The translations under genes were made by a program, and so were the position numbers. From Heterohyrax brucei (Eukaryota; Chordata; Mammalia; Hyracoidea; Procaviidae), in NCBI GenBank assembly GCA_028571685.1, contig CM053143.1, positions 50,461,208 to 50,525,207 of the forward strand: DNA of 64,000 nucleotides. Direction: 5' to 3'. Shown piece after piece: positions 4,940 through 49,535 of the stretch. The notes below the pieces were generated by a model, which was given only the letters and a program-made list of their open reading frames with translations, made no database searches and was not told the origin of the DNA. Each line of letters starts with the position of its first letter. The first letter of the stretch is position 1.

Positions 4940-5300
4940 CACAAACAAAAACAGTCTTGGATGAGTCCACTGTGACTCAAGGTGACCACATGTGTGCCAG
5001 AGTAGAACTATGTCTCTAGAGTTTTGATAGCTGATTTTGGAAGTAAATCATAGGACTTCCTTTTCAGGGAAACCCTGGTGGTGTGGCTGAGTGCTACATC
5101 TGCTAACTAAAAGGCTGGCAGTTCAAATCTTCCAGACCCTCCTTGGAAACTGTATGGGGCAGTTCTGCTCTGTCCTATAGGTTTGCTATGAGTCAAAATT
5201 GACTCGACGGCAGTGGGTTTGGTTTGGGTTTTTTCTTTTCAGGGCACCCCTGGGTGGACTTGAACTTCCAATCTTTTGGTTAATAGTGCATTAACTGGAA
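4940..5300 (-). repeat. AfroSINE, antisense, split by a second SINE
   Basis: Left part 4,940-5,069 shows antisense SINE body (gccagagtagaactatgtct). The right part resumes after 5,244 with the antisense head region (gggtggacttgaacttcc, then ttttggttaatag). The interruption is the sense SINE at 5,070-5,234. The copy is diverged and its ends are approximate. Confidence 0.7.
5070..5234 (+). repeat. AfroSINE, sense, full length, nested in another SINE
   Basis: It starts gaaaccctggtggtgtgg (A-box-like), has a B-box-like cagttcaaatc and the body gggcagttctgctctgtcct. It ends in the RTE-like tail (gagtcaaaattgactcgacg) and a T-rich end. A 10-bp direct repeat, cttttcaggg, lies at 5,060-5,069 and 5,235-5,244, which fixes both ends. 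Confidence 0.9.
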
Positions 5301-9165: not shown

Positions 9166-9549
9166 AAGGCTCCATTCCTGTAGCTGTTGAGTCATTTCCA
9201 GCTAATGGTGGCCCTAGTTGTGTCAGAGTAGAACTGTGCTCCACAGGATTTTCAATGGCTGATTTTTCAGAAGTAGATCATCAAGTCCTGCATCCAAAAC
9301 ATATTGACATGCTACATGCTATTATCGAGTCGATTCCAACTCATAGCAACCCCATAGGACAGAGTAGACCTGCCCCATAGAGTTTTCAAGGAGTACCTGG
9401 TGAATCTGAACTGCTGACCTTTTGATTAGGAGCCATAGCACTTACCCACTACACCATCAGGTTTCCAAAACGCCTCTGGGTAGACTCAAACCTCCAACAT
9501 GTCTATTAGCAGCTGAAGGCATTATCCATTTACACCACCCAGGAACTCC
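9166..9549 (-). repeat. AfroSINE (long subfamily), antisense, split by another SINE
   Basis: The first part (9,166-9,300) has gctgttgagtcatttccagc and the long-subfamily block ttcaatggctgatttttcag. The second part (9,472-9,549) has ctctgggtagactcaaacct and ends tttacaccacccaggaactc. The copy is interrupted at 9,301-9,463. Confidence 0.8.
9301..9463 (-). repeat. AfroSINE (short subfamily), antisense, nested
   Basis: It has the tail ttatcgagtcgattccaact, the body cccataggacagagtagacc and the head ctacaccatcaggt. The 8-bp direct repeat tccaaaac at 9,293-9,300 and 9,464-9,471 marks the insertion into the older SINE. Confidence 0.88.
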
Positions 9550-26461: not shown

Positions 26462-26628
26462 CAGAAACCCTGGTGACCTAATGGCTAAGTGCTATGTCTG
26501 GTAACCAAAAGTTTGACAGTTCAGATCCTCCAGGTATTCCTTGGAAACTCTATAGAACAGTTCTACTCTGTCTTGTAAGGTTACTGTGAGTTGGAATCCA
26601 CTTGATGGCAGCGGGTTTACTTCTTTTT
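26462..26628 (+). repeat. AfroSINE (short subfamily), sense
   Basis: It begins gaaaccctggtgacctaatg, then ctatagaacagttctactct, and the tail gttggaatccacttgatggc. A T-rich end follows. Confidence 0.88.
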
Positions 26629-28997: not shown

Positions 28998-30125
28998 GCT
29001 GGTGTTATTAGGTGCTGCTGAGTCTTTTCCAACACATAGTGACCCTATGAACCACAGAATGAAACACTGCCTGCTCTTGCACCATGTCCACAATCGTTTT
29101 TATGTTTAAGCTCATTGTTGCGGCCACTGTGTCAAGCCATCTTGTCGAGGCTCTGCCTCTTTTTCTCTGACACATCACTCTACCAAGCATGATGTCCTTC
29201 TCCAGGGACTGATCCATCCTGACATGTCCAAAGTATGTAAGACATAGACTTGCCGTTGTTGCTTCTAAGGAGCGTTCTAGTGGTACTTCTTCCACAATGA
29301 TGTGTTCATTCTTTTGGCCGTCCATGGTATATTCAATATTCTTCACCAACTCAACAATTTAAAAGCATCAGTTCTTCTTTTCTTATTTGTTCATGGTCCA
29401 GCTTTTGCATGCAAACAATGTGATTGAAAATACTATGGCTTGGGTCAGGTGCACCTTAATCTTGAAGATTACATCTTTACTTTTCAATTCTTGAAAGAGA
29501 ACCTTGGCATCAGATTTTCCCAATACAATGCATCTTATGATTTCTTGACTGCTGCTTCCAGGGATGGTGACTGTGGGCCCAAGCAAAATGAAATCCTTGA
29601 CGACCTCAATTCTTTCTCCATTTATGATGATGTTGCTTAGCTTTCCAGTTGTGAGGATTTTTGTTTTCTTGATGTTGAGGTTGAATCCACACTGAAGGCT
29701 GTGGTCCTTGATCTTCATTAGTATTTCATATCTTCTTCACTTCCAGCAAGTAAGGTGATGTCACATTTGTGTAATATAGGTTGTTAATGAGTCATCCTCC
29801 AATCCTGATGACTCATTCTTCTTCACATAATCAAGCTTCTTAGAGTACATGCTCAGCATACAGATTAAAAAGGCATGGTGAAAGGATGCAACCCTGATGC
29901 ACACCTTTCCTGACTTTAAACCGTCCAGTGTCCCTTTGTTCTGTTTGTATAACTGCCTCTTGATCCATATATAGATTTCTTAAGAGCACAATTAAGTATT
30001 CTGGAATTCCCATTCTCTGCAATGTTAGTCATAATTTATTATGAGCCACACAGTCGAATGCCCTTATATAGTCAATAAAACACAAGTAAACATCTTTCTG
30101 GTATTCTCTGCCCTACAGTTTTGCC
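28998..30125 (-). mobile_element. RTE/BovB-like LINE, 3' half, antisense (fragment 4)
   Basis: This is the best-preserved RTE piece. The minus strand encodes HVRMDQSLEKDIMLGR near 29,215 (RTE C-terminus), and VRKGVHQGCILSPCLFNLYA near 29,860, which is the reverse-transcriptase GCxLSPxLFNLY motif. The 3' tail at 28,998-29,045 is shared with the AfroSINEs. It is 5'-truncated near 30,125 and split among several frames. Confidence 0.88.
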
Positions 30126-34889: not shown

Positions 34890-35847
34890 ATGGGACCCAA
34901 AAAGCAACAGACAATTGTGGCATACAAGCAATCACTCATGGCTTCAGAAGGCTCCCAAACAAAGCAACCAAGGAGTTTTCCAGATGAAGAAACTTTTATG
35001 AAAGCATCAGGAAGTGAATACAAATTGATTATATACAGAGCCCTTCTAGACCTTATACAAAATATAGCAGAACAAAATGAAAAATTAAGCAAGTTGTTCA
35101 ATCTGATGGAACACCAGTACTCTGAAATCCAACAGATCAAGAAGAAAATCAAAGACATAGAAACTTCCATGCAAAGCCAAGAAAACAGAATGGAACAAAT
35201 GGAAAAAAGAATTTCTGACTTAGAAGACAGAACTACTGATGCCAGTGTTTATGAGCAGAAATCAGAAAAAAGAAACAAGAAAAATGAAGAAACATTAAGA
35301 AGCGTGTGGGACTCTATTAAGAGGAACAGCGTTCGAATAATTGGAGTCCCTGAACAGGCTGAGACATCTGAACACAGAGAGTATTGTTGCTGAGCTGCTG
35401 AAAGAAAACTTCCCAGAAATCATAAAGGAAGAGAATATAGACATCTCAGATGCATATCGTACGCCACCCAATATAGATCTCAAAAGAAAGACTCCAAGAC
35501 ATATTATAATCAAGCTTAACAAAATGAAACATAAGCAGCAACTCTTAAAGGCAGCAAGACTCAAGGCAAAGCTAACATTCAGAGGGAAACCCTGCAGGCT
35601 TTCATCAGATTTCTGAGCAGAAACCATGCTGGCACGGAGACAGTGGCATGACACATTCAAAGTCTTGAAGGAGAATAACTTCCAACCAAGAATTATATAT
35701 CCTGCAAAACTATCTTTCAAATACGAAAATGAAATTAAGACACTCCCAGATAAACAGAAACTCAGAGACTTGGTAAAAACCAAACCCAAACTACAAGAAA
35801 TGCTGAAAGAAGTTCTTGGCTTTGGCTTAGAAGAACAAAACCACTAA
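34890..35847 (+). pseudogene. L1 ORF1 (RNA-binding nucleic-acid chaperone), broken
   Basis: ORF1p coats L1 RNA as a trimer. The first frame (34,890-35,393) encodes MGPKKQQTIVAYKQS, then a coiled-coil-like stretch rich in Glu, Lys, Gln and Ile (about residues 60-125), then NSVRIIGVPE, which opens the RRM. The sequence changes frame near 35,360-35,385 and goes on with LLKENFPEII, RTP, TPRHIIIKL and FRGKP. An in-frame TGA at 35,614-35,616 lies in the DF(S)AET block. The C-terminal domain continues FQPRIIYPAKLSFKYENEIK to the stop at 35,845. The intact length would be about 319 residues, near the usual size. It has one frameshift and one stop. Confidence 0.9.
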
Positions 35848-36269
35848 CTTTATATATTAGAACGACACACTACTTAATACTCTAGTCATTTAGGGAAGGC
35901 CCCAAAGTAATTCACAGCTTTGATATGGAAAGAAGCAATCCAGTGATCATCATGAAAACTATGGTGTCATCATAATAAAAAGAGGGATGTACTACAGTCG
36001 TTATAGTCCTTCCAGATGGAGAGGAAGATGACAAGACTGGTAGTAATTAAAATTGGGCTTATAAATAGTTTATTAAGGGGGTTCACAGGGGCAGCTCTAA
36101 AGAACAACAAAGATGTATCATACCATTTCAAGAAATCTAACACATGAGTCTCAACAACTATAAAACCAGCTCTGAAAACGGTGAAAAATCAACTCACAAA
36201 AAAGAGTGTCCCAGAACAGACTAATAAGAACAACAGAGAAAACATCAACATAAAAATAAACATATCACA
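35848..36269 (+). other. Long L1 inter-ORF spacer
   Basis: A 422-bp A-rich noncoding stretch lies between ORF1 and ORF2 (human L1 has about 60 bp). It has stops in all sense frames and no resemblance to a SINE or LTR insertion, so it appears to belong to the subfamily. It contains a tract near 35,975 (aaaaagagggatg) and ends aacatatcacaatggcagca at the ORF2 start. Confidence 0.75.
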
Positions 36270-39200
36270 ATGGCAGCAGTGAACACATACCTATCAATAA
36301 TTACATTGAATGTGAATGGACTGAATGCTCCAATAAAGAGACACCGAGTGTCATCTTGGATCAAAAGACACGACCCATCCATATGTTGTCTACAAGAAAC
36401 TCACTTGAGACCTAAAGACAGGAACAAACTGAAAATTAAAGGATGGAAGAATATATATCAAACTAACAGTGAACAAAGAAGAGCAGGGGTGGCAATTCTA
36501 ATCTCAGACAAAATCAATTTTAATGTCAAATCCACCATCGTGGACAAAGACAGACACTATTTATTGCTGAAACGTTCAGTAAACAAGCAAGACTTAACTA
36601 TATTAAATATTTATGCACCTAATGTCAGAGCACCTAAATATGTCGAAGAAACACTGACTATGCTCAAAAGAGAGTTAGATGACTCCACAATAATAGTGGG
36701 AGACTTTAACATTCCACTCTTATTACTAGACAGATCATCTAGAAAAAAGCTTAGTAAAGATACAGAAGACCTCATTGACACAATTAACCAACTAAACCTC
36801 ATTGATATATACAGAACTTTCCACCCATCAGCAGACAACTACACCTTTTTCTTCAGTGTGCATGGAACATTCTCCAGAGTTGACAACATGATAGGCCATA
36901 ATGCAATGCTCAACAAAATCCATATGATTGAATTACTACAAAGCATCTTCTCAGATCATAAAGCCATCAAAGTTGAAATCAATAGCAGAAAAAAACATAG
37001 AAAGTGGAACTCTTGGAAACTGAACAACATCTTGCTCAAAAAAAACATGAGTTATAAAGGAAATCAAGGATGAATTAAAGAAATTCATGGATTCCAATGA
37101 GAACGAAAACACTTCCTACCAGAACCTATGGGATACAGCCAAAGCAGTGCTCAGAAGTCTGTTTATCTCCATAAATGCACACATCTGGAAGGAAGAAAGA
37201 AACCAAATCAAGGAACTAACCCTACAGCTTGAACAAGTAGAGAGAGCACAACAAAGGAACCCCTCAGACAACAGAAGGAAACAGATCATAAAGATTAGAG
37301 CAGAGCTAAATGAATTAGAGAATAGAAAAACGACTGAAAAAATTGAAAAGATCAAAAGCTGGTTTTTTTGAAAAGATCAACAAAATTGATAAACCACTGG
37401 CTAAACTTACTAAAGAAAAGCAGGAAAGGAAACAAATAACCCAAATTAGAAATGAGAGGGGAGTTGTCACCACAGATGCAACAGAAATCAAAAATATCAT
37501 AACAGAATACTATGAAAGACTGTACTTTAACAAATTTGAAAACCTAGGGGAAATGGACAAATTCCTTGACTCATACCACCTACCCAAATTATCACAATGT
37601 GAAGCAGAACAGCTTAATAAACCCATCACAAAGGAAGAGATTGAAAAGGTCATCAAAACACTGCTAACCAAAAACAGTCTGGGCCCAGATGGCTTCACAG
37701 CAGAATTCTACCAAGCATTTAGAGAAGAGTTATCCCCAATACTACTGAGACTATTTCACAGTATAGAAAGGGATGGAGTACTCCCAAACTCATTCTATGA
37801 AGCCACCATAACCCTGATACCTAAGCCAGGGAAAGATCCAACAAAGACAGAGAACTACAGACTGATATCACCCATGAACCTAGATGCAAAAATCTTCAAC
37901 AAAATTCTTGCTAACAGAATACAACAACATATCAAGAAAATAATCCATCATGACCAAGTGGGATTCATACCAGGGATGCAAGGCTGGTTCAACATCAGAA
38001 AAACAATTAATGTGATTAACCACATAAATAACACAAAAGACAAGGATCACCTGATTTTGTCCACTGATGCCGAAAAGGCATTTGATAAAGTCCAACACCC
38101 ATTCATGCTAAAAACTCTTAGCAAAGTGGATATAGATGGTAAATTCGTCAACACAATAAGGGCCATTTATACAAAGCCAATTGCCCACATCATCCTGAAT
38201 GGAGAGAGACTGAAAGACTTTCCCTTGAGATCAGGAACTACACAAGGATGCCCACTGTCAACTCTCCTATTCAACATTGTGCTGGAAGTTCTAGCCGGAG
38301 CAATTAGACAAGATGAAGAAATAAAGGGCATCTGCATCGGCAAAGAGGAAGTTAAAATCTCCCTGTTCGCAGATGATATGATTGTATATGCAGACAACCG
38401 CAAGGAATCTATAAGTAAGCTACTCAAACTGATAGAAGAGTTCAGCCAAGTCTCAGGATACAAGAGAAACATAAGTAAATCAGTAGGATTCCTTTATACC
38501 AACAACGAGACTGTTAAGGAGGAAATTATCAAATCAATACCATTTATGATAGCCCCTAAGAAGATAAAGTACCTAGGAATTAATCTAACCAGAGAAACAA
38601 CAGACCTTTACAAAGAGAACTACAAGCCCTGACTACAAGAAACTAAGAGAGACTTAGATAAATGGAAAAACCTACCCTGCTCACGGATAGGAAGACTTAA
38701 CGTTGTGAAAATGTCTATTTTACCCAAAACAATTTATTTATATAATGCAATCCCAATACAAGTTCCAGCATCATTTTTTAATGAGATGGAGAAACAAATC
38801 ACCAATTTTGTTTGGAAAGGGAAGAAGCCCCTGATAAGTAAGGTACTACTAAAGAAGAAGAACACACTGGCAGGCCTCTCATTACCTGACCTTAGAACAT
38901 ACTACACTGCCACAGTGGTCAAAACAGCCTGGTACTGGTACAAGAACAGACAGATGGATCAATGGAACAGAATTGAGATCCCAGAGATGACACCATCTGC
39001 CTATGAACAGTTGATATTCGACAAAGGCCCTAAGACATTAAACTGGGGTAAAAACAGTATCTTCAACAAATGGTGCTGGCAAAATTGGTTACCCATCTGC
39101 AATAAACTGAATCAAGATCCATATCTTACACCTTATACAAAAACCAACTCCAACTGGATAAAAGACCTAAATATCAAACCTAAAATGATAAAGCTCATCG

Positions 39201-40089
39201 AAGAAAAGGTAGGAACAACAATGGAAGTTTTAATACACAATGAGGACAGACTCCAAAATCTGTCAAAGAAACCTCAATCAACAGAAGAGAAAATAGATAA
39301 ATGGGAACTATTAAGAATCAAACACTTTTGCTCATCCAAAGACTTTATTAATAGAATTAAAAGAACACTACAGAATGCAAAAAAATATTTGGCAACTCTA
39401 TGTCATACCGATGCCTGATCTCCATAATCTATAAGATACTACAAAATATCAATAAGAAGAAGATAAACCTTCCAATTAAGTGATGGGCAAAGGAGATGGA
39501 CAGACACTTCACTGAAGAGGAGATCCAGGCAGCCAAAAAACACATGCGGACATGTTCACAATCTTTAGTTATTAAAGAAATTCAAATCAAGACAACAATG
39601 AGATACCATCTCACCCCAACAAGATTGGCCATGATCCAGAAAACACAAAACAACAAATGCTGGAGAGGCTGTGGAGAAAGTGGAACCCTCCTGCACTGTT
39701 GGTGGGGTTGCAAAATGGTCCAGCCTCTTTGGAAGGCAATCTGGCACTTCCTTAAAAAAATGGATATCGACATACCATTTGACCCAGTAATTCCACTACT
39801 TGGAATATATCCTATATCAAGGCCTTTCACACCAATGGACACATGCACCAAAATGTTTACTGCAGCACAGTCCACGATAGCAAAAAGATGGAATCAACCC
39901 AGATGCCCAACAATAGAAGAAAGCATTGGTAAACTATGGTACATATACTCAATGGAGCACTACGCAATGATAAAGAATAACGATGATTTCAGGAAACATC
40001 TCCTAACCTGGTTTCAACTGGAAGACATTATGTTGAGTGAAAGTAGTCAGCAACAGAGGGACAAATACTATATTAGACCTCTGCAATAA
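36270..40089 (+). pseudogene. L1 ORF2 (endonuclease and reverse transcriptase), broken
   Basis: ORF2p nicks target DNA and reverse-transcribes L1 RNA there. The start MAAVNTYLSIITLNVNGLN follows the spacer. Endonuclease motifs: N in TLNVNGLN, E in CLQETH, GDFN, and SDH near residue 233 (36,270-37,073). Reverse transcriptase: [37 protein letters not shown] and [10 protein letters not shown] (37,343-38,632). The C-terminal cysteine-rich [18 protein letters not shown] is at about 39,658-39,711. Disruptions seen: frameshifts near 37,045-37,075, in the T run at about 37,363-37,369 and near 39,410, plus TGA codons at 38,630 and 39,481. The total is about 1,273 codons, the normal size. Confidence 0.93.
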
Positions 40090-41081
40090 GGTCTCAAAAA
40101 CAGACTTGTGTATAGAAGAAAAGACTCTTTGACAGCTGCAAGGGAGGGGAAGGAGTGAGAGGGAGGGGAGGGTTTAGTTTAGATAGTTAGTAGAAATCTA
40201 GTTTGGAGAAAGCGGTGATAGCACACATTAGAAACAAGAACAACATTAAGTGGACTTCAGCATAACTTGAGTACTCCTTCCATCTTGACTCAATATTGCA
40301 AGGATAGAGTAGCCGGGGTGGGGGGCGGGGGACCATGCTCTTAGGCGAATTCCAGGCCAATTGGCACAACTAGTGTTTTGCTAAGAGAGCTCTCTGCACC
40401 CCACATTGGTGAGTGGCGTCTGGGGTCTTAAAAGCTGCCAAGCTGCCATCCGAGGACACAGCAAATGGTCCCAACTCAGCAGGAACGGATGCTCACCGAG
40501 GACCAAAATGACATGTGGTAAAGACAACCAAGAAGACAGAGAGACCCACAAGAGTGGGTGCCTACATCGACTTGGGACCAGAAGAACCAGATGGTGCCCG
40601 GCCACCATCAGTGATAGCCACGATGGAGCTCACAGAGAGGAGTCTCATTAGCAACACAAGAATAAAAAGGGGTGCACCCTGAGATCTCCACTAAAAGACC
40701 TCAATTGATGGTCCAGCAGTTTTGGGGTTCCCCTGAGAGCATGGCCCCTGGCCCTGATGCTGCCCTTACCCATAAATTATAACAAAGGTCCACTCGTTGG
40801 ACAGGAATGGATTGGACTTGACAATGCAGAGTGACTATATATTGGAAGCACTTTATGGTTCTATACGTCTGTAGGATATCATCTTGCTGACCTCTGGCTG
40901 GAGGAAGGGGAGTGGACGGAGAGGAGGGGAAAGGAGGCTGTTGGGAGGATGAGACATGTATGGAGCAGAGAGGAATAGTGCGCAGTCACCGGACAGGGAG
41001 AGCAGTGGAAGCTGCATATAGGTGGGCATGTAAATTTATACATGAATGTACATTTTCATTCAGTTATGTTAAATAAAAAAA
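40090..41081 (+). promoter_or_regulatory. L1 3' UTR with G-rich tracts and poly(A) signal
   Basis: About 980 bp. G-rich runs occur at about 40,141-40,171 (gggaggggagggttt) and 40,316-40,332 (ggggtggggggcggggg), which could form quadruplexes, a feature known for L1 3' UTRs. AATAAA lies at about 41,072 just before the A tail. The same 3' UTR is present at 19,952-20,973 (sense) and 59,535-60,560 (antisense). Confidence 0.85.
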
Positions 41082-41337
41082 AACTTCATAGAGGCAGGAT
41101 TTATAACAGGAAGGACATTATACAATATCAGGAATCATGGCTCAGTTCAATTGCTACAGATTTTGGGGGGAACACATTTCAATCCATGACAGTGATTTAT
41201 ATAATTTTTGGTTATATATTTAGGTCTTTGATCCATTTTGAATTAGTTTTTGTGTATAGTGTGAGCTGTGGTTTAAGGTTCTTTTTTTTTTGAGGATGGA
41301 CATCCAGTTTTGTCAGTATCATTTGCTGAAAGACTGT

Positions 41338-41361
41338 GACTCAACGGCACTTGGCTTGGCT
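41338..41361 (-). repeat. Very short SINE/RTE-tail insertion in old L1 ORF2
   Basis: The antisense L1 wording 'catttgctgaaagactgt ... ctttcccccatctgatgg' is broken by gactcaacggcacttggc and a few more bases, which match the AfroSINE/RTE 3' tail. In the minus-strand protein this appears as extra residues after WGK. The exact limits are uncertain. Read as sense tail it is on the plus strand; the strand given is that of the host L1. Confidence 0.5.
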
Positions 41362-42000
41362 TTCCCCCATCTGATGGACTTAGAGCCTTTATCAAAGATC
41401 ACGTAACCACAGGTGGATGAATTTACATCCCGATTCTCAGTTCTGCTCAATTGGTCAGTGTGTCTGTCACTGCACCAATACCAGGTTATTATGACTACCA
41501 TAGCTGTATAGCAGGTTCTGAAGTCAAGTAGTGTAAGGTCTCTTACTTTCTTCTTCAGCAGTGCTTTACTTATCTAGGGCCTCTTCCCTGTTCATATAAA
41601 GCTAATGAGTAGTTTTTCCACCTCTTTAAAGAATACTGTCGGTATTTGGATTAGGATTGCATTGTACTTGTAGATTGCTTTGGTTAGAATTTTCACAATA
41701 TTAAGTCTCCCTGTCCATGAGCATGGTATGTTTTTCCACTTATGTAGATTTCTTTTGGGTTCTGGCTATAGTTTTTGGTAGTTTTCTTTGTAAATTTCTT
41801 CTAGATTTATCCCTGGTTAGATTTATTCTTAAGTATTATACCTTTTTAGGGGCTATTATAAATGGTATTTTTCCCCCCAATTTCCTTTTTGTAGCTCTCT
41901 TTATTGATGTATAGGAATCCAGCTGACGTTAATCAAGTAATCTGGTAGTCTGCTAAATCTTTCTATTAGTTCTCACGGAGTCTTCTGGGTTTTCTATATA

Positions 42001-42560
42001 CAAGGTCCAACAGTTAAGTCTGTGAATTTAATTGTTCTAAGTGCTACATACCTTGTTGCCAGATATCACTATGGTCACTTTCTATGCACACATCTTAGGA
42101 AGCTATAAATTGATGCCAGTGCCTAATCCACCCTTAAAAGCAATTTTGGAACTCTTTTTCTGGAATGGCCATCAGAGCTGTTGTCATATTACCCTTAATG
42201 TCCTGAATGTCATCAAAACATCTTCCTTTCAATATTTCCTTTATCTTCAGGTAAAGAAAAAAATCATTGAGGTCCAGATCAGGTGAGTAAGGAGAGTGTT
42301 ACAATACAGTAATTTGCTTACTGGCTAAAAACTCTCACAGACAACTAAACAATTAAGTTCGCAAACTTACCACCATGCCACCATGCACACTGGCCATTCC
42401 AGAGAGTTCCAAAATTTCTTTGAAAGGTGGACTAAGCACTAGCATTGGTGCATAGCTTTCTAAGAGGAGAACTTTGAATGTGACCATAGTTATATTCAGC
42501 AGTGAGGTAGGTAGCACCTTTTTTAGGATGAGTTCATGAACTTAATTGTCAGACCTCATG
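42001..42560. mobile_element. Foldback mariner derivative (560 bp), TA-flanked
   Basis: The ends are caaggtccaacagttaag and, inverted, catgaggtctgacaattaag, with TA on each side (41,999-42,000 and 42,561-42,562), as mariner elements require. The left part, read on the minus strand, encodes the end of a mariner transposase: SPDL(x)LNDFFLYLKIKEIL, KGRCFDDIQDIKGN, ALMAIPEKEFQNCF. The right part carries the same 3' end in the opposite direction, so about 165 bp at each end are inverted copies. A third end-like sequence (caattaagttcgcaaactta) lies inside at about 42,350-42,370. It cannot encode transposase. It is inserted in old L1 ORF2. Confidence 0.88.
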
Positions 42561-42783
42561 TAGGAGTATATCACCTGGAAATTGAGACAGTTATATTTTG
42601 TCATTATCAATTTGGATGTCTTTTATTTTTGTTTCTTGCCTTACCCCTTTAGCTAGCTCTTCCAGCACAATGTTAGACACGAGTGGTGATAAACGGCATC
42701 CTTGCCTTTTTCCTATTGTCAAGAGCAATGTTTTCAGCTTTTCTTTATTAAGAATGATGTTGACTGTCAGTTTTGTACACTCA

Positions 42784-42937
42784 CATACACCCAATGCCAT
42801 TGAGTCCATTCCAACTCATAGCAACCCTATGTGACAGAGTATAACTGCCCTCACAGAGTTTTCAAGGAGCACTTGGTATATTTGAACTGCCAATCTTTTG
42901 GTTAGCAGCCAGAGCACTTAACCAATACACCAGTTTC
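42784..42937 (-). repeat. AfroSINE, antisense, inserted in the old L1
   Basis: acccaatgccattgagtcca, cctatgtgacagagtataac, tcttttggttagcagccaga and caatacaccag. The short direct repeat cagtttt stands near both ends (42,768 and 42,938). Confidence 0.87.
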
Positions 42938-44040
42938 CAGTTTTTTATGGATGCCATTTATTATGTTGAGGAATTTTTCCTCAGTACTTATTTTATTGAG
43001 AGTTTTTACCTGGAATGGGTGTTGGACTTTGTTGAATGCCTTTTCTGCACCAATTGAGAAGATCATGTGATTCTCTCATTCTACTTATGTAGTGGATTGT
43101 GTTGATTGATTTTTCTAATGTTGGACAATCCTTTCATGCCTGGTATGAATCCCAGTTGGTCTTGGTGTATTATTTTTTGGATATGATGCTGAATTCTACT
43201 GGCTGGTGTTTTGCTGAGAATTTTTGTATTCATATTCACAAGAGATATTACCCTGTAATTTTCCATTTTCATTGTGTTTTTGCCTTCTTTTGGTGTCAGG
43301 CTTATACTGACTTCATAGAATAAATTCAGAAGTATCCCTTCCTTTTCTATGTGCTGAAATAGTTTGAATAGTACTGGTGTGAGCTCTTCTTTGAATGTCT
43401 GGTAGAAGTCTCCAGGGAAGCCGTCTGTGCCATGGATTTTGTTGTTGGAAGTCTTTTAATTACGTTTACAATCTCCTCTCTTATTATGTGTCTGTTCAGA
43501 ATTCCAACATCATTTTGTGTTATTGTGAGTAAGTAGTGTATTTCTAGAAATTTGTACATTTCCTCTAGGTTTTCAAATTTGATGGAGTACCAGTTTTTGT
43601 AAATATTCTGTTATGATCCTCTTTATTTCAGTTGGGTCTGTTGTGATGTCCTCCATTTCATTTCTTATTTGGTTATTTGCAACCTGTCCTGTTTGTCTTT
43701 CATTAATTTGGCCAATGGTTTGTCAATTTGTTGATTCTTTCAAAAAACTTTTGTTTTTGTCGACTCCGTTTTTCTGTTCTCTATTTCATTTATTTATGCT
43801 CTGATCTTTGTTATTTGTCTTTCTTGTGGCTGTGGGCTTCTTCTGCTATTCTTGTTTGAATTGTATAGCTAATGTTTTCATTTAGTTCTTTTCTTTTTTG
43901 TTGTGTGCAACTATTGCTATAGCTTGACCTTTGTTGTATTTTGAAGGTTTTGATAGGATATGTTTTCATTCTTGTTGATTCTACAGCTTTTTTGATTCCA
44001 TCTTTGCTTTCTTCTATTACTCAGTGGTTTTTAAAGAGGC

Positions 44041-49359: not shown

Positions 49360-49535
49360 AAACAAAAAAACCAACCTAGTGTCAACGAGTTGATTTCAAC
49401 TCATAGCAACCCTATATGGCTAAGTAGAACTGCTCCATAGAGTTTCCAAGGAGTGCCTGGAGGATTTGAACTGCTACCCTTTTGGTTAGCAGACATAGCA
49501 CTTAACCACTACACTACCAGGGTTTCCAAAGAAGC
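49360..49535 (-). repeat. AfroSINE, antisense, full length
   Basis: ctagtgtcaacgagttgatt, cctatatggctaagtagaac, cttttggttagcagacatag, ending accactacactaccagggtt. Confidence 0.9.

Follow-up and report, generated by a model that had tools for sequence, protein, structure and literature searches.

A mariner derivative with two inverted 3′ ends and its palindromic family in Heterohyrax brucei

Introduction

How does a mariner transposon come to carry its 3′ end twice, and does such an arrangement mark an accident at one site or a family that moved? The question is raised by a 560-base element in a stretch of Heterohyrax brucei DNA of 64,000 nucleotides (positions 50,461,208 to 50,525,207 of contig CM053143.1, assembly GCA_028571685.1; the whole stretch is called the window here). 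An original prediction, made from the letters alone, saw in this element two end sequences in inverted orientation with a TA on each side, arms of about 165 bp that carry the C-terminal end of a transposase facing opposite ways, and a third terminal-repeat-like block between them. The element was dissected against a mariner found in the same genome, and its relatives were sought in the window's own assembly (3,487,966,737 bases, or 3.49 Gb, in 62 contigs). We conclude that the window element is very probably one decayed member of a large nonautonomous family of palindromic MITEs, whose source was an irritans-type mariner that this genome also contains.

Anatomy of the window copy

The palindromic mariner derivative occupies exactly 42001-42560 of the window, and the two copies of its TA target site lie directly outside its ends at 41999-42000 and 42561-42562. 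A repeat search found the arms at 42041-42155 and 42403-42517 (115 nt, 77% complementary), together with an inner inverted pair at 42159-42171 and 42391-42403 (13 nt, 100%), and the BLAST comparison of the element with the window recovered the arms as a 131-bp inverted match (E 2.5e-22). The predicted pair of inverted, TA-bordered ends is thus borne out, and the estimate of about 165 bp for the arms agrees with the family consensus, in which they pair over 168 positions at 95.8% identity.

Compared with its parent mariner, the palindrome consists of an inverted 3′ end, 5 filler bases, 30 bp of 5′ end, a repeat of CACCGTGC and a direct 3′ end. The left half (42001-42343, minus strand) is the inverted 3′ end with the transposase C-terminus and the 3′ ITR; in the family consensus it aligns with parent consensus positions 967-1315 and measures 348 bp including the TA. 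The 5-bp filler at 42344-42348 forms a family-specific junction, and the window copy shows a single mismatch to the 27-bp word that spans it. At 42349-42378 on the plus strand lies a buried relic of the parent 5′ ITR, which aligns over 30 bp with the parent 5′ end and has lost the outer 11 bases (TA included). It accounts for the third terminal-repeat-like block, which had been placed at about 42,350-42,370 and was located at 42348-42369, and the repeat search detected it as inverted repeats I2 and I3 as well. A short joint at 42379-42390 (plus strand), where CACC[A/G]TGC is repeated, leads from this relic to the right half (42391-42560, plus strand), a mariner 3′ end in direct orientation whose counterpart in the family consensus is 172 bp of the parent 3′ end including the TA (parent 1140-1315). 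Comparison with a consensus of 12 autonomous-type parents, a check suggested with the original prediction, therefore maps both halves to the 3′ end, the left inverted and the right direct, and the claim of two inverted transposase 3′ ends stands.

The left arm translates on the minus strand to HSPYSPDLDLNDFFLYLKIKEILKGRCFDDIQDIKGNMTTALMAIPEKEFQNCF and holds a stop-free remnant of the transposase C-terminus, 54 codons long (HSPYSPDL...EFQNCF), at 42137-42298. In the right arm, distal codons of the transposase C-terminus survive on the plus strand, GHSREFQNFFERW ... SYIQQ*, interrupted by stops. Both arms do carry the C-terminus, in opposite directions. With the 54-aa remnant as the query, the PDB gave a weak match to SETMAR (E 0.47), Pfam gave one weak and unrelated match, and pattern scans for relatives matched 5 IMG/VR stretches and 82 in GTDB contigs, none of which encoded a relative. 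A tRNA scan found no tRNA, no tandem repeats were found within the element, and Rfam at E up to 1 returned 2 unrelated matches (E 0.37 and 0.57) far under their gathering scores. The RNA fold of 42001-42562 reaches -207.2 kcal/mol, compared with -125.9 (sd 5.9) for 100 shuffles (z -13.7; 0 of the 100 reach it), which upholds the predicted capacity to form a hairpin; RNA transcribed through a well-preserved copy could form a long one.

The parent mariner

The parent was sought with a Pfam Transposase_1 search of the assembly, which gave 150 scored matches among 4,131 candidates. Twelve parents were chosen by us from these 150, the six best and six lower ones. All 12 loci align mutually, the 3′ end is common to them and the palindrome, and their consensus measures 1,319 bp as cut (about 1.3 kb). 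Three of the parent loci match themselves over 24, 30 and 33 bp, which gives ITRs of about 30 bp, as in irritans mariners. Palindromic arms beyond the ITR are present in none of the 12, the one locus flagged by the arm test (L122) owing this to its 24-bp ITR only. Relative to the parent, the second (direct) 3′ end of the family consensus has a 2-base deletion and a rebuilt tip. As judged from these alignments, the common family form consists of two parent 3′ ends that face opposite ways on either side of a truncated 5′ ITR.

In a protein alignment with its relatives the parent displays DD34D spacing and the motifs DETW, HHDNAPAH and YSPDLAP. The uncorrected parent consensus has N at the second D of the catalytic triad and the relative P0001 has H at the first, the other aligned relatives having D throughout. 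A 249-aa part of the parent matched Pfam Transposase_1 with 59.3 bits (cut-off 24) and also DDE_3; the family consensus of the C-terminal part, compared with known structures, matched the Mos1 transposase (E 4.6e-10) as well as SETMAR. The motifs described for Hsmar2 as an irritans-type element, in the excerpts of PMC3770610, fit the parent's motifs and DD34D spacing. The parent can thus be assigned, at the level of its predicted protein, to the irritans-type DD34D mariners (Tc1/mariner), and it resides in the same genome as the palindrome.

Among the matches listed (120 of 5,849), the nearest named proteins to the 249-aa part come from Rhinolophus sinicus (91%), where the matching segment belongs to an entry whose protein name refers to COX assembly, and Rhinolophus ferrumequinum (90%); after these two, the next row named by organism is an aphid at 66%. 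Other transposase relatives among the matches listed (P0003-P0016 and P0018-P0020) are 71-86% identical to the parent, a hint that mariners of the parent type may have other hosts. One copy of the parent (L140, G000:C7:115258510-115259060) has an internal deletion of ~820 bp (parent 123 to 944) and is an ordinary deletion derivative.

The palindromic family in the genome

Does the arrangement extend beyond this locus? A similarity search with the 560-base window copy produced 16,399 first-look candidates, 40 of which were scored, and all 40 have a long match over 464-560 of the 560 query bases, with 80-84% identity when the window itself is excepted. Across the whole assembly, 33,558 places (16,865 + 16,693) match the 27-bp junction when up to 3 mismatches are allowed, and 32,837 (16,355 + 16,482) match the modified tip described below, used as a second marker; the reversed control gave 0 in both cases. 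The junction filter was passed by 28 of the 39 loci chosen by similarity (the window not counted), so the true family number is probably >33,558. The copy number is at least tens of thousands, and if all 33,558 were full length the family would account for about 19 Mb, or 0.5% of the genome.

Two samples were studied in detail. The first holds 70 loci with an exact junction from contigs C1 and C2 only (30 returned first and 40 more from the exact-match list), and the second holds 39 loci ranked by their similarity to the window copy, which is itself end-swapped as described below. Both inverted arms, scored as the left-arm consensus matching twice in opposite orientation, are present in 68 of the 70 exact-junction loci (the exceptions being L083 and L105) and in all 39 similarity-chosen loci. 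The family consensus, 566 bp with its TAs, is short, encodes no complete transposase and has ends that match the autonomous-type parent. Flanking bases were surveyed in the 81 measurable copies of 110 (of the other 29, 20 were untyped and 9 had weak matches at their ends), and TA is found on both sides in 44 and on at least one side in 71. The common departures from TA are CA and TG, as is expected of decay. Since a junction of identical type recurs this many times and the arms are shared, the element represents a mobile foldback family rather than a local rearrangement, which is how the original prediction had proposed to read many copies with one internal junction.

Two tip types and end-swapped copies

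The two tips of the palindrome are unequal, one being of the parental 3′ type (X) and the other modified (Y). The 3′ tips of the parents score as X in 12 of 12, and X is therefore regarded as parental and Y as derived. Among the 70 exact-junction loci, both ends could be typed in 54 copies: 53 of these pair a parental tip at the left with a modified one at the right (XY), and the remaining one is YY. The other 16 have at least one untyped end. The 40 window-similar loci (the 39 and the window) comprise 21 XY, 7 YX, 6 XX, 2 YY and 4 untyped copies, and an earlier typing of the same 40 without the ambiguity rule had given 24 XY, 7 YX, 6 XX and 3 YY. The Y tip of the family consensus, which corresponds to 42001-42036 in the window, contains a 26-bp near-perfect palindrome made of ACAATTAAGT, six bases and ACTTAATTGT.

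The window copy belongs to the YX class: end typing gives its left half the modified tip and its right half the parental one, so that the tips are swapped, with the inner arm marker in its usual place. An exchange between inverted arms would give swapped tips. That the end-swapped copies are fresh flips only is disfavored, since a two-base change at consensus 222-223 is shared by 4 of the 7 YX copies (window included) as against 3-4% of XY copies. The swapped YX form itself therefore probably spread as a sub-family, an argument that is weakened because the change at 222-223 could be two decay products of one CpG. The YX copies also lie farther from the XY-based consensus, with a non-CpG K2P of 0.154 (0.144 for the window) versus a mean of 0.097 for the 74 XY copies of the multiple alignment. 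These 74 copies were also examined for gene conversion between the arms once inserted, and they show no sign of it: their arms share 117 derived letters versus a shuffled mean of 123.1 (sd 9.4), or 27 versus 30.4 (sd 5.3) when the count is limited to non-CpG positions.

Numbers and divergence relative to the parent

Uninterrupted parent sequence across the left breakpoint, searched with a word as long as the junction's and with equally many mismatches allowed, occurs 5,525 times (2,771 + 2,754), which sets junctions against uninterrupted parent sites at ~6:1, a ratio between two words whose decay rates may differ. Intact parent 5′ ends (31 specified bases, <=2 mismatches) number 1,076 (545 + 531). 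Twenty were fetched, taken in order from the 34 places among these matches that have no mismatch, and all 20 run on into parent 5′ sequence. Two of them have internal deletions (L137 and L140), and none of the 20 is a simple MITE that carries the palindrome's deletion.

The mean non-CpG K2P from the consensus, by local alignment, is 0.096 for the 12 parents and 0.092 for the 70 palindromes. These values suggest at most that parents and palindromes are of similar age, because both samples were picked for good matches. With a mammalian neutral rate near 2.2e-9 per year, the divergence corresponds very roughly to some 40 million years or more. The family today is a fossil.

Origin and spread

How might the doubled end have arisen, and did it matter? 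Fillers and short duplications of the sort observed here can result from template switching in gap repair after excision or from the fusion of two copies. The family would have arisen once, and its founder may have come from a repair error or a template switch that involved two mariner copies, or from two neighboring copies whose outer ends were used together. Most likely, we infer, the palindrome was then moved in trans by the parent transposase and was favored by its doubled end; mariner MITEs can transpose in vitro (excerpts of PMC2642840). Cleavage by this transposase would have taken place at the outer pair of 3′ ITRs, and the inner 5′ ITR, truncated as it is, would have been passed over and would have ceased to compete as an end. 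The doubled end may have made the palindrome a better substrate than the parent, by analogy with Mos1 and Mboumar-9, for which two identical preferred ends transpose best, the preferred end being the left repeat in Mboumar-9 and the right in Mos1 (excerpts of PMC4505599). "Two identical ends" is an approximate description of the palindrome, since nearly all fully typed copies of the exact-junction set pair a parental with a modified tip. A bolder picture is possible, though less likely than not: a natural 3′-3′ mariner with its preferred end doubled and the other crippled may have become a super-substrate that reached ~6:1 over the parent and about half a percent of the genome, with occasional flips of the middle giving end-swapped sub-families that also spread.

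Short size and master-copy luck are common explanations for MITEs, and it is quite plausible, if a little short of probable, that this family spread through small size and a chance burst and not through its doubled end. The copy number could stem from short length or chance, and mariner MITEs are able to move without palindromy and need not be fully palindromic to do so according to excerpts of PMC2642840, a point that counts against the doubled-end reading. Against small size as the whole explanation, the sample of 20 intact 5′ ends contains no short 5′-3′ MITE with the palindrome's deletion, internal deletions being found in just L137 and L140, and doubled ends were favored in vitro for two other mariners in the parts of PMC4505599 consulted; neither point is decisive.

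The hairpin could instead point to a host role. That the palindrome was kept as a source of small RNAs, like Made1 and miR-548, would suit the strong hairpin of the RNA fold and has the precedent of Made1 in the available text of PMC1784062. This alternative is nevertheless very unlikely, given that Rfam gave just the 2 weak unrelated matches and that the sampled palindromes are about as diverged as the sampled parents.

The right half on its own, a 5′ ITR relic followed by a 3′ end, has the makeup of an ordinary internal-deletion MITE, in which one 5′ and one 3′ end remain and the arms are alike merely through their ITRs. However, the homology of the arms spans 168 paired positions and includes coding sequence, the 12 parent loci are palindromic only in the short ITR (24-33 bp self-matches), the inner 5′ ITR is without its outer 11 bases and all 20 sampled intact 5′ ends lie in parent-like copies. 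Such a deletion is highly improbable, and it is rejected for the termini, both of which are 3′ ends with the 5′ ITR internal and truncated. Although each half does align to an ordinary mariner 3′ end, a local rearrangement that set two ordinary mariner insertions inverted and adjacent at a single locus is next to impossible, being refuted by the recurrence of the same junction 33,558 times and opposed by the arms common to all 39 similar loci and by the position of the whole unit within one TA site of an L1.

Comparison with known systems

FB is a foldback element with long inverted arms. The hyrax family resembles FB and Galileo in having long inverted arms around a middle but differs from them in being of mariner sequence with TA at its flanks, whereas Galileo is a member of the P superfamily (excerpts of PMC4168063). 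Made1 is alike in being a near-perfect palindrome of mariner origin (Hsmar1) that forms a hairpin, and it consists of 80 bp, two 37-bp Hsmar1 ITRs around 6 bp (PMC1784062, in part). In contrast, the hyrax family is about 560 bp long and has another anatomy and another mariner as its parent, with arms of ~170 bp that contain coding sequence and a ~220-bp core with the buried 5′ ITR. With a consensus of 566 bp and a parent in the same genome, the family is not Made1 itself. Hsmar2 and the "Humar1" inverted repeat are similar by description, since there too an irritans mariner was originally encountered as part of an inverted-repeat arrangement (Oosumi et al., as cited in the excerpts of PMC3770610), and the Hsmar2 consensus was not found among the matches listed (120 of 5,849 proteins). 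The parent may be akin to the Batmar-like irritans elements named in R. ferrumequinum (PMC5490172, in part), to judge from the 90-91% identity of the Rhinolophus proteins over 249 aa; the excerpts of PMC5490172 mention no palindromic derivative of Batmar.

Palindromic mariner MITEs are already known as a kind, and most MITEs, mariner-derived ones included, are palindromic throughout according to excerpts of PMC2642840. What is unusual here is the one doubled end with coding sequence, the buried and broken 5′ ITR, the size and the scale. For scale, a mariner lineage of 8,041 copies in Rhodnius prolixus is called huge and short mariner MITEs are rare there, in the parts of PMC4678618 consulted. 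In the titles and abstract openings of the open-licence literature on elephant, tenrec or Afrotheria mariners and on palindromic mariner MITEs (the best 20 of 42 for the latter), we found no account of the hyrax family, and the excerpts of PMC3183009, PMC5857283, PMC5490172 and PMC4971623 do not describe it. A family so large is probably already in Repbase, Dfam or similar repeat libraries. According to the available text of PMC2642840, the prevalence of palindromes among mariner-derived MITEs still lacks an explanation, and a doubled-end family makes that question testable. A palindrome made from one doubled end, beside thousands of parent relics in the same genome, provides a natural case in which to ask why a doubled end should make a successful parasite, and its copies burden one mammalian genome with many hairpin-prone repeats.

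Insertion site and neighboring repeats

The flanks of the palindrome are L1 sequence, antisense to the L1 at 34890-40089. When the flanks are joined without 42001-42562, they align through the insertion point to L1 copies of the window at 38187-38978 (reversed) and 2-360. These alignments have small gaps elsewhere, as expected for L1 copies of such age, and no large gap at the joint. Because the flanks align across the joint as an empty site would, the palindrome occupies one single TA site. The host of the palindrome is an older antisense L1 at about 41000-43600, and the plus-strand L1 at 34890-40089 has ORF pieces of 167, 267, 429, 237 and 197 aa. A repeat of ~150 bp at 42786-42939, which we take to be an AfroSINE, has about 15 further copies in the window that are 68-82% identical to it, among them 9324-9467, 49374-49514, 5068-5218 and 26470-26619. 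Two ORFs of 113 and 111 aa at 29008-29718 on the minus strand resemble a reverse transcriptase of the RTE/BovB kind.
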